Of a stretch of DNA of 64,000 nt, positions 26,062 to 28,909 are shown piece after piece. Each line of letters begins with the position of its first letter. Position 1 is the stretch's first letter. The position numbers and the translations under genes were made by a program. Location: contig NZ_CP145886.1 in the NCBI RefSeq assembly GCF_038049935.1, forward strand, positions 744,001 to 808,000, written 5' to 3'. The stretch comes from Rossellomorea sp. y25 (GTDB taxonomy: Bacteria; Bacillota; Bacilli; Bacillales; Bacillaceae_B). The notes beneath the pieces were generated by a model, which made no database searches, was not told where the DNA came from, and was given only the letters and a program-made list of their open reading frames with translations.

Positions 26062-26095
26062 TACGATTTTCATAAGGGGTTCCGTTCAGGGAGAG
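26062..26095. repeat. Left boundary repeat of AT-rich cassette block
   Basis: TACGATTTTCATAAGGGGTT (26062-26081) recurs in direct orientation at 28889-28909 with small changes. The overlapping 23-mer at 26073-26095 matches the reverse complement of 28868-28890 at 20 of 23 positions. Together they frame a distinctly AT-rich 2.8-kb stretch. Confidence 0.55.
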
Positions 26096-26340
26096 AAAAT
26101 AGCAAATAGCACTATAAATAGCAGGCTAATTCGCATACGGATTAGACCTGCTTTATTTATTGTTATATCAATGTTTTCATCAAATTCGGGGGTGAATTAG
26201 CACTTCAAATAACACCTTAATTAACAAGCGTACAATAATTATTGTACAGCAAAAAAAATGGGTGCTAATTAGGGTGCTAAAGGACTTGTCAATTTCTTGC
26301 GGAAATGAGCCTTTGGTGAGGCATTGTGTGATACAATTGT
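26096..26340. other. Non-coding structured segment at left of cassette block
   Basis: No gene. A hairpin AGCAGG...CCTGCT lies at 26120-26152. A perfect 18-bp palindrome GTACAATAATTATTGTAC lies at 26230-26247. It is flanked by two GGGTGCTAA copies (26260-26268, 26272-26280) on one side and two TTAGCAC/TAACACC inverted relatives (26197-26203, 26210-26216) on the other. The symmetry resembles a protein-binding or recombination site. Confidence 0.5.
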
Positions 26341-26350
26341 AAATAATGGA

Positions 26351-26381
26351 TATTCCATTAACGGGCAGTTTAATGGAAGAA
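26351..26381 (+). repeat. Cassette separator palindrome A
   Basis: TTCCATTAA, loop CGGGCAGT, TTAATGGAA: a perfect 9-bp inverted repeat (26353-26378), 60 bp before the GNAT gene. The core is TTAA-n-GGGCAG-TTTAA. Confidence 0.7.
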
Positions 26382-26440
26382 GGACTTCCTTTAAATATTA
26401 TTGAATATATTACTAATCAATGTTCAAAGGGAGTTATTTA

Positions 26441-26872
26441 ATGGAGATTAGAAAAGCAAATTCAAATGATATAAATGAATTAGCATCACTAATGGAACAA
26501 CTTGGTTATAAGACCTCAATAGAACAAATGAGTGTTAGGTATAAAAATATTGAAGCCACTCAAAACCACTATACTCTAGTCGCTAGTTGTGAAGGAAAAG
26601 TTGTAGGAATGGTTGGATTTCATACTGTTGTTCTTTATAACACTGATGGGATATACGCTAGAGTAATTGCCTTTGTAGTGGATTCCAATTATAGAGGTAA
26701 AGGGATAGGAAGACTTTTATTAACTGAAGCGGAAATATTTGCAAAAAACCTAGGCGCTGATGGAATTGCGCTAAATAGTGGAAATCGTACAGAGCGAAAA
26801 AAAGCACACCAATTTTATGAAAATATGGGATATGCAGCGAAAAGCACAGGATTTACAAAGTCCCTTATTTAA
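26441..26872 (+). CDS. GNAT-family N-acetyltransferase
   Basis: A 143-residue GNAT protein. The acetyl-CoA-binding motif A is FVVDSNYRGKGIGRLLLTEAE (R-x-x-G-x-G/A), followed by GADGIALNSGNRTERKKAHQFYENMGY. Closest in style to aminoglycoside/small-molecule or peptide N-acetyltransferases, substrate unknown. ATG 26441 has AAAGGGAG upstream. AT-rich, and preceded by separator palindrome A and followed by separator B, as if a single-gene cassette. Confidence 0.88.
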   Translation: MEIRKANSNDINELASLMEQLGYKTSIEQMSVRYKNIEATQNHYTLVASCEGKVVGMVGFHTVVLYNTDGIYARVIAFVVDSNYRGKGIGRLLLTEAEIFAKNLGADGIALNSGNRTERKKAHQFYENMGYAAKSTGFTKSLI

Positions 26873-26956
26873 TTAACGTGGGCTTATCCGGAATAAGTAT
26901 GAGCTTCTTTTTTGTTTAAAATTTTTCTTGAGTAGGCTGCTCGGCTTTGAAATAAT

Positions 26957-26991
26957 TGGTATTAAGTTAAAGGGCAGGTTTATTAAATAAT
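26957..26991 (+). repeat. Cassette separator repeat B (degenerate)
   Basis: TTAAGTTAAAGGGCAGGTTT keeps the TTAA-GGGCAG-TTT core of copies A, C and D, but the outer inverted arms are degenerate. It lies between the GNAT gene and the small membrane-protein gene. Confidence 0.5.
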
Positions 26992-27062
26992 AAAAACTCT
27001 AAAGGTAGGTCAGTTTGATTTTGTAATCAGTATCTTGAAGATAACTTAGGTGGAGGGGGATT

Positions 27063-27308
27063 ATGGAAGCAAAAGAGAACAGAAAATTTGGTGATATATA
27101 CCGTATTATCTTGATCACTCATTTCACCCTACTAACAATAAATACTTTTTTCCTTGAAGAGGCTTGGTTTGATTACATTTTTTATTTTTCAAGCTTATTA
27201 TCGATCATTATACTAACTATTTTAAGTATTAATGAAAATAAAAAGGTTTCTGCTATCATACTTTGTTTGCTATTTCTTGGATATTTACTTGCATTTAATA
27301 GTATTTGA
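27063..27308 (+). CDS. Small three-helix membrane protein
   Basis: An 81-residue protein with three hydrophobic helices (IILITHFTLLTINTFF, FYFSSLLSIIILTILSI, AIILCLLFLGYLLAF) and short charged links. GGTGGAGGGGGATT lies immediately before ATG 27063. I recognise no family. It is the middle one of three genes separated by short palindromic repeats. Confidence 0.6.
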   Translation: MEAKENRKFGDIYRIILITHFTLLTINTFFLEEAWFDYIFYFSSLLSIIILTILSINENKKVSAIILCLLFLGYLLAFNSI

Positions 27309-27389
27309 TTAAAAGTACACGAAATAGAAATAAGTTGTTCCGCTTAGGCAGCAATAGTTAAAAATTGTTATAGAAAAGCATTTTCATAA

Positions 27390-27419
27390 CTTCATTAAAG
27401 GGCAGTTTAACCGAATAAG
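27390..27419 (+). repeat. Cassette separator repeat C
   Basis: TTCATTAAAGGGCAGTTTAACCGAA: the same core and orientation as copies A and D, with an imperfect inverted repeat. It lies 132 bp before the serine-hydrolase reading frame. Confidence 0.6.
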
Positions 27420-27550
27420 AGAGTATTTAAATAGGGGGAAGATAACTTGTTTAAGATATTCAACTTTATATAACCGTTAATAAGGGGTCCGCCCTCCAAA
27501 AGTGAAGCTAATTATACTCACTAACAAATCATAATTGGAGGTCATTTAAT

Positions 27551-28702
27551 ATGAGTGGAGAAAATATGAGGGCCAAAGAATTAGATATAGTATTAGATTT
27601 CTTAGAACAATATAAGCTATTTAATGGGACTGTGCTTTTATCTGAGGAAGGCAAACCATTTTACAAGAGAGCGATAGGCAAGAGAACTTTCTCAGAACAA
27701 CATTCCCATAATTCTATTTTTGAAATTGCTTCGATTTCAAAGAGCTTTACAGCTATGGCAATTATGATACTAATTGAGGAGAAAAAACTAAAATTAGACG
27801 ATAATCTAAAAACGTTTTTCCCTTATCTTTCATACAAAAACATTACAATTAAAAATATGCTAAATCATACCTCTGGACTTCCCGATTATATGGAATGGTT
27901 TGAGACAGAGGGGAACTGGGACCAAACAAAAATTGCAACAAATAAAGATGTAATTAAATTCCTGAAAGATGAAGAGCCTGATGTATTATTCCCAGTAAAT
28001 GAGAAGTGGGAGTATTGTAATACAGGGTATGTACTGCTGGCAGAAATCATAGAAATGGTTTCAAAAATGGAGTACGGAGAATTTTTAAAGATAAGAATAT
28101 TTGAACCATTAAGTATGTTAAATACCTCAACGCATTCTTAATTCCTAGATGACGAAATTGAATATTTTTCGTTAGGGTATATCTATGATTGGGAACAGGA
28201 TTTGTACAGACTTCCGAATGAAATCGAAGAGCATAAATATGTGTATTTCCTCGATGGTGTTAAAGGTGATGGCGGTATAAAATCAACCGTGGATGATTTA
28301 CTAAAGTGGGAACGTTCTATATATAATAATGAGTTGGTATCCGAACAATCAAAAGAGTGTATAATTAACCCCAATTATCTTAACGGAGATGCTTCCGTTA
28401 AATATTGCCCTGGTTTGCACAAGGACTTGGGGGGATATGGTCTTGGCTGGAAAATTGAGGACCACCCTCAGTATAAAAAGATTGTGCTTCACGATGGATA
28501 TTGGGCAGGGTATTGTTCTGGTTTAATTAGTTACAAAGATTGTGACAAAGCTATTATTATGCTATGCAACCTCGATTTTACCACTGATGAATTAAACAAG
28601 ATTCCGCATCTTTTAATCCTTACATTAGAGAAGGTTTTGTTCGGTGGCGAAGCAGAACTGCAAGAATTTAAGCAGTTAATTAAGCCTACTTATGTAGAAT
28701 AA
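27551..28702 (+). pseudogene. Class C beta-lactamase-like serine hydrolase with in-frame stop
   Basis: One frame of 383 codons broken only by TAA at 28139-28141. Upstream are the SxxK motif (ASISKSF) and the YxN motif (WEYCNTGY). Downstream, in the same frame, come FLDDEIEYFSLGYIYDWEQD and the HxG motif (LHDGYWAGYCSG). These are the three catalytic motifs of the penicillin-binding/class C beta-lactamase (DUF-type esterase) fold, so the first half alone lacks part of the active site. TAA could derive from a TAT or TAC tyrosine codon by one change. A sequencing error or readthrough are alternatives. GGAGG lies 9 bases before ATG 27551. Confidence 0.8.
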
Positions 28703-28712
28703 TCGAAGCCAA

Positions 28713-28746
28713 TATTCCGTTAAAGGGGGGCTTAACAGAATAAGAA
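28713..28746 (+). repeat. Cassette separator palindrome D
   Basis: TTCCGTTAA, loop AGGGGGGC, TTAACAGAATAAG: the fourth copy, ten bases after the hydrolase stop, in the same orientation as A-C. Confidence 0.6.
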
Positions 28747-28762
28747 GATAATAAAGACATAA

Positions 28763-28792
28763 AAACCCAGAGTCATTTGCTCTGGGTTTTTT
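28763..28792 (+). terminator. Terminator after serine-hydrolase frame
   Basis: AACCCAGAG, 6-nt loop, CTCTGGGTTTTTT. Confidence 0.85.
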
Positions 28793-28867
28793 ACTGTTAA
28801 ATATCGTGCTATTTACATCGTTATTTTCGTTATTTCTGCTGCTAATTGGTGTGTGATTTAAGGTTTT

Positions 28868-28909
28868 CCCTCCCTCAACGGAACCCGTTACGATTTTCAA
28901 TAGGGGGTT
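28868..28909. repeat. Right boundary repeat of AT-rich cassette block
   Basis: Holds both an inverted copy of the left 23-mer (28868-28890, 20/23) and a direct copy of TACGATTTTCA plus AGGGGGTT (28889-28909). Confidence 0.55.

Follow-up and report, generated by a model that had tools for sequence, protein, structure and literature searches.

Integron recombination sites carry the core GTTRRRY, and the integrase IntI1 has about 134 residues between its catalytic arginines. Cassettes also travel in MITE-borne integron units, i.e., inverted-repeat elements without a transposase, and genes are shuffled in a comparable manner by the pdif modules of Acinetobacter, which depend on XerC/XerD and alternate in orientation. 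One account describes pdif modules as individual genes flanked by short palindromic sites on which Xer-type recombinases act (PMC7399989), and another defines an integron by an integrase with the IntI-specific domain (PMC9668308). For the Firmicutes, the IntegronFinder 2.0 paper reports one complete integron (Limnochorda pilosa) and a few CALIN (PMC9024848); a review counts the Firmicutes among the phyla with integrons (PMC8618304).

Here, we compare these systems with a repeat array of Rossellomorea sp. y25. The window, meaning the whole 64,000-nucleotide stretch that was analysed (G000:C1:744001-808000), contains four short repeats around three small genes. We propose, with a probability of roughly 0.8 and on the basis of sequence comparison, that cassettes of Bacillales are exchanged by an integron-like system whose recombination sites are these repeats. 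A complete site would consist of two complementary halves, R''-GGGGGC-L'' upstream and L'-GGGCAG-R' downstream, and the strand exchange point would lie within GGGCAG^K. A dedicated 280-aa Xer-type tyrosine recombinase, encoded here at 3.41 Mb, would recombine these attC-like sites, so that cassettes, usually one gene with its own site, could be cut out, transferred and lined up in a single orientation; some would bring a terminator and a promoter-like stretch inside the site loop. The three window cassettes would then make up an array that lacks an integrase, bounded by the left site and the right half-site of a carrier element. This carrier, itself without a transposase, would spread the array, and the recombinase could act on the array sites in trans. 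The alternatives of promoter/terminator elements, IntI integrons or XerC/XerD modules were each ranked below the integron-like cassette system. The array comprises the following features, in window coordinates:

26349..26382, plus strand: site 1 (L'-GGGCAG-R'), core 26363-26368, from the weight matrix
26369..26977, plus strand: cassette 1, with its own attC-like site at its end
26441..26872, plus strand: GNAT acetyltransferase gene (PF00583, 2.6e-16), start assigned by judgement, longest frame from 26420
26865..26885, plus strand: upstream half (R'') of site 2, overlapping the GNAT stop codon and pairing with 26970-26990 (81% complementary over 21 nt)
26928..26956, plus strand: promoter-like TTGAGT-17-AATAAT in the site 2 loop, matched on consensus alone (the region has 18 matches of this kind where 12.8 would be expected)
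26958..26991, plus strand: downstream half of site 2, core 26972-26977, from the weight matrix
26978..27405, plus strand: cassette 2, gene 27063-27308, matching L089 1510-1930
27386..27419, plus strand: site 3, core 27400-27405, from the weight matrix
27406..28730, plus strand: cassette 3, serine hydrolase gene 27551-28702, matching L077 6382-7701
28711..28744, plus strand: site 4, a half-site of the GGGGGC type (centre GGGGGG here), at the right end of the carrier

All four repeats were found on the plus strand at the positions named in an earlier sequence-only reading. A 34-bp weight matrix, seeded with 47 relatives that included window copies 1 and 3 and not copies 2 and 4, scored 49.3, 39.0, 34.0 and 23.9 for the 34-mers starting at 26349, 26958, 27386 and 28711; the top score in 320 kb of shuffled window was -1.8. 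The same reading had described one shared palindromic GGGCAG element, which fits copy 1, the only clean palindrome, and does not extend to copies 2 and 3, with their weak left arms, or to copy 4, with its GGGGGG centre. The window repeats are the downstream halves of attC-like sites, and copy 4 is the other half-site type. The suggested division into three single-gene cassettes stands, each cassette holding one gene, with the amendment that the gene of cassette 3 has an in-frame stop. The product of this gene matched PF00144 (Pfam family Beta-lactamase) in both gene pieces, and the single TAA lies at 28139-28141, though the surrounding cassette is 93% identical in another genus. A family search with the 81-aa protein of cassette 2 found no family, and the window gave no Rfam match at gathering scores. 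The promoter-like stretch of site 2 recurs in the loops of other sites and behind integrase genes.

Sites of this kind, and arrays of them, can be read directly in many other Bacillales genomes. With a strict site pattern, 22 of 36 genomes in the genus yielded 41 matches in all (reversed control, 0), and 29 of the 36 matched a looser one. Across the order, a third pattern matched in 150 of 397 genomes and 58 of 135 genera, with up to 34 matches per genome and a sum of 566, against about 18 in a reversed control that was counted by eye. Among named genomes, an exact scan returned 17 stretches, which belong to Rossellomorea, Bacillus, Paenibacillus, Jeotgalibacillus and Fictibacillus. Within the genus, the fetched stretches hold 174 sites in one-orientation arrays of mostly single-gene cassettes; window site 4, whose centre is not GGGCAG-like, was left out of this set. 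Neighbouring sites within 3 kb lay on the same strand in 100/100 pairs of the genus stretches. Across 98 intervals between 200 and 3000 bp long, the median was 810 bp; in 85 of them the longest ORF ran along the site, in 7 it ran against it and in 6 it was shorter than 50 aa. Arrays of the same plan occur near the recombinase in other genera too. The region of the second array encodes a 1935-aa protein (L032 6420-12227), far above the usual cassette size, which resembles an Rhs-repeat protein. Paenibacillus sites (L068, L073) have a strong terminator-like hairpin directly upstream; one of the two genomes encodes a recombinase 50% identical to P0001, the array-borne enzyme of the source genome, and the other encodes none at E 1e-30.

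The point of exchange was located through pairwise comparison of the flanks (300 bp) of all 174 sites, a flank counting as shared from at least 100 bp. The right flank alone was shared by 23 pairs, the left alone by 90 and both by 8. The shared part began or ended no more than 3 nt from GGGCAG^ in 17/23 right-only and 79/90 left-only pairs, where 63 of the 90 are not independent, both sites belonging to family C with a common loop of about 110 bp; among the other 27 left-only pairs, 17 stopped within 3 nt of GGGCAG^. In stricter sets of 14 right-shared and 11 left-shared pairs, the base directly after GGGCAG had an identity of 0.86 and 0.36, respectively, and at the seventh and eighth bases before the cut identity was 0.50 and 0.82. 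Exchange thus falls at a fixed point of the compared sequences, and the gene between sites varies while the sites stay, which is the check that the sequence-only reading had named for its attC-like gene-capture or dispersal system; that proposal gains support from exchange at GGGCAG^ and from carriers with the same ends and different genes.

Homologous cassettes were likewise found beside different neighbours, with the switch in identity falling in the core GGGCAG^K. Over 1324 bp, site to site, cassette 3 shares 93.1% identity with a cassette of Jeotgalibacillus sp. R-1-5s-1 (L077), and cassette 2 is 89.0% identical over 427 bp, again site to site, to one of another species (L089 of G029). L089 lies on contig C31 of G029, with a recombinase gene about 12 kb off among more sites. 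Of cassette 1, only the last ~113 bp, its site, was found again among the fetched loci. An explanation that we regard as scarcely credible is that the repeats are ordinary promoter/terminator elements, or repeats exchanged by homologous recombination. Site loops do contain terminator-like hairpins, those of family C have the promoter-like stretch, and the 63 left-only pairs of that family share just a loop type. Against this, breakpoints fall at one point in a 6-bp core while the 300-bp flanks are unrelated on one side, whole cassettes are common to different genera from site to site, and orientation is strict.

The attC-like proposal of the sequence-only reading needed two amendments, the first being that the window array itself lies inside a transposon with inverted repeats and a 9-bp duplication. 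The features of this transposon are as follows:

26064..26072, no strand: left copy of the target duplication, CGATTTTCA, 9 bp, from flank comparison
26073..26099, plus strand: left terminal inverted repeat, TAAGGGGTTCCGTTCAGGGAGAGAAAA, 27 bp, carrier end
26073..26368, plus strand: left end of the carrier up to GGGCAG^, matching the left ends of other carriers
28731..28890, plus strand: right end of the carrier, common to other carriers from its second base onward
28864..28890, minus strand: right terminal inverted repeat, carrier end
28891..28899, no strand: right copy of the target duplication, CGATTTTCA, 9 bp, from flank comparison

With inverted ends, a target duplication and no transposase, window positions 26073-28890 correspond to a transposase-less (MITE-like) transposon. 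The unoccupied locus is present in a relative (G008), where the left flank runs to 26069 and the sequence resumes at 28908, with 17 bp between. The terminal repeat was matched 32 times, in 18 of the 36 genomes in the genus (control, 0). Seven elements have both ends, and each of them shows a perfect 9-bp duplication, in one case after a 1-base shift. The left ends of L238, L241, L242, L243, L244 and L246 align exactly to carrier base 26368, i.e., to the end of the site 1 core. A left GGGCAG site lies 272-284 bp from the end in five of the seven carriers (window, L238, L241, L242 and L243); L239 shows the right site only and L240 neither. The genes of the window carrier gave no transposase match, nor did five proteins of L238, L239, L241 and L242, those that the Pfam scan of other carriers covered. 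Two further carrier families have other inverted repeats, and in each family a 9-bp duplication was read by eye in one member (L096, L081).

Cargo differs among carriers with the same ends and includes a deaminase, a CBASS cyclase with a 2TM-SAVED effector, and a TPR/PIN protein. The CBASS cyclase and 2TM-SAVED effector form an anti-phage pair in a carrier of the same family as the window's (L239 516-2880, G003:C12). In lacking a transposase and bearing cassettes between inverted repeats, the carriers resemble MITE-borne integron units and differ from them in two ways: the recombination sites are built into the ends themselves, and the cassettes enclosed by the same ends vary from one related carrier to another. 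The left end has the form L'-GGGCAG-R' and the right end R''-GGGGGC-L'', so that the carrier would be an attC-like site turned inside out; upon circularisation, its ends would restore a full site, and the circle could then join an array in the manner of a cassette. In three carriers, the left-end and right-end arms are complementary at 9, 10 and 11 of 14 positions, at the best of three offsets. We tentatively suggest, at somewhat less than even odds, a broader reading in which a capture system independent of IntI has converged on integrons and is common in Bacillales, its carriers holding the attC-like site inside out and being movable as either transposon or cassette.

The anatomy of complete sites extends the comparison with integrons. 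At many sites, a second half with the centre GGGGGC lies upstream of the GGGCAG half. It was recognised within 170 bp of 74/174 sites, mostly at a few distances, compared with 106/1960 random stretches, and no upstream half was recognised at 100/174. This two-half plan of arms corresponds to the integron attC plan as given in PMC8946536. Among 47 sites of four families, the inner arms L''/L' matched at 8.70 of 13 positions, at 7.05 when swapped with other families and at 6.02 when shuffled. The outer arms R''/R' matched at 8.04 with their own partner, 7.94 swapped and 5.93 shuffled, and such equal matching of own and swapped partners is expected if R' arrives with the next cassette.

Covariation was measured in an alignment of 37 of the 47 sites, which omitted family E together with three family B and two family A sites that looked misassigned. 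The helix L''/L' was 79.9% paired, with pairs such as GC 15 / CG 9 and AU 15 / UA 13. Over the whole structure, 72.3% of cells were paired (68.8% shuffled) and 74 cells were changed on both sides (50.9 shuffled), neither value being reached in 500 shuffles, and the covariation score was equalled by 1/500; the aligned sites are related to one another, so these counts are no strict probability. Two of the five measures, pairs with double change and further pair types, were not above the shuffles. Sliding the partners by 1 to 3 columns lowered pairing to 32.6-48.8%. A first complementarity search over whole upstreams did no better than swapped upstreams and was dropped. Energy folding of four sites as single strands was clear in one, partial in one and absent in two, including window site 2. 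A folded single strand may be the substrate. A variant with the centre GGGCCA accounts for 12/174 sites (for example L033 13558, L088 6178, L070 5673, L086 11213, L091 16470 and L099 3902) and is often first in its array, with the promoter-like stretch after it. It also lies directly behind the recombinase gene in Rossellomorea, and we consider this variant a candidate attI.

Alternatively, the sites could belong to a dif-like, double-stranded system, in which host XerC/XerD or another Xer pair acts on palindromic sites with arms around an 8-bp spacer, as at Acinetobacter pdif, and the upstream halves are only terminators. The downstream half by itself is an inverted repeat around AGGGCAGG, and the 100 sites with no recognised upstream half accord with this explanation. 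We nevertheless judge it unlikely, since L''/L' covary and the sites keep one orientation in every neighbouring pair, and the distribution of the recombinase described below argues against it as well.

For the integron-like system, the putative enzyme is encoded elsewhere in the genome. The sequence-only reading had noted the absence of an integron integrase, and no tyrosine recombinase was found in the window; the second amendment is that a dedicated recombinase does lie elsewhere in the genome, in a second array at 3.41 Mb. PF00589 has five matches in the genome, one of them inside this array. Among ten genomes of the genus searched, five (the source genome and four with close relatives near sites) have the recombinase in arrays. 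P0001 is 280 aa long, and its catalytic residues R, K, H, R, H and Y are all present; its best NCBI family is the XerA-type NF040815, at 216.6 bits, just below the 220 cut-off, and its nearest solved relatives are XerC-like, XerD and XerA, with IntI4 aligning in part. We consider P0001-type recombinases the probable catalysts of the exchange, and the 3.41 Mb enzyme may serve the window cassettes in trans.

Public proteins include 914 relatives of P0001 at E 1e-60 or better; within the best 120 of these, the named ones are all from Bacillales genera, Bacillus cereus and B. mycoides included. At the same threshold, the recombinase is found in 85/397 genomes of the order and 44/135 genera, some copies being broken. 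A small tree gave 100/100 support to the split between 13 array-type recombinases and four Xer proteins; two array-type rows (L265, L268) had no label, which is why the labelled set amounted to three changes. Strict sites averaged 3.66 per genome with the recombinase and 0.82 without, and the recombinase is present in 10 of the 12 genomes with at least 10 strict sites versus 75 of 385 others, the genomes in both comparisons not being independent. A dedicated recombinase that occurs in arrays, is commonest in site-rich genomes and is separate from the Xer proteins further opposes the dif-like explanation. In that explanation's favour, many site-bearing genomes have no dedicated recombinase: 28 of the 51 genomes with at least three strict sites have none at E 1e-60, and among 13 named genomes with sites it is present at no less than 86% identity in four, at 50% in one and absent in eight. 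No strict site was found in 39 of the 85 recombinase-bearing genomes.

Around 35 recombinase genes, 64 sites were found, against 5 in a reversed control. Nine of the genes are followed, after 45-132 bp and on the same strand, by a site; four of these sites are GGGCCA variants that were added to the pattern after being seen. Two other genes have a site 86-87 bp upstream on the other strand. The promoter-like stretch lies behind the recombinase gene in 10/25 loci, and a LexA-box-like sequence with no more than two mismatches precedes it in 2/25. The recombinase gene is directed away from its array in some genera (L150, L152, L263), which is the arrangement of classical integrons; its direction in Rossellomorea and others is along the array. 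Separately, two loci (G029:C29:208762-211837 and G022:C5:63557-67253) carry four tandem tyrosine recombinase genes that are unrelated to the array type.

The recombinase also bears on whether the array is a true integron with a divergent IntI or one encoded elsewhere, which we hold to be very improbable. The array and site plan are those of an integron, and some of the best 120 of the 914 relatives bear the NCBI label 'site-specific tyrosine recombinase/integron integrase'. P0001, however, scores 100 bits with the integron integrase model TIGR02249, whose cut-off is 265, and only 94 residues separate its two catalytic arginines, compared with about 134 in IntI1, so that the IntI insertion is missing. 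A search for IntI at E 1e-40 found none in 397 genomes and carries little weight, as the control genomes were equally silent.

Overall, the proposed cassette system shares with integrons and CALIN the one-orientation arrays of mostly single genes, sites made of two halves that complement each other, an exchange point fixed within the downstream half and, in part of the Bacillales loci, a site and promoter-like stretch beside the integrase gene. It differs in its XerA/XerD-type recombinase without the IntI insertion, in the core GGGCAG^K rather than the integron core, and in being widespread in Bacillales, where integrons are nearly unknown. By the definition in PMC9668308, a recombinase without the IntI domain does not make an integron, though the system would work like one. 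From the pdif modules of Acinetobacter, it is set apart by a dedicated recombinase, a single orientation and two-half sites. The system was suspected from the first to be undescribed, and a literature search, with subscription papers and preprints outside its scope, gave no description of it; it is apparently new to the literature.

A parallel cassette system would give the Firmicutes their own gene-shuffling platform and would explain the movement of single accessory and defence genes between genera. It can be searched for through the GGGCAG^K sites, the 280-aa recombinase and the carrier ends TAAsGGGTTCCGTT. Finally, it would provide an independent case for asking which parts of an integron, such as folded sites and the IntI insertion, are needed.
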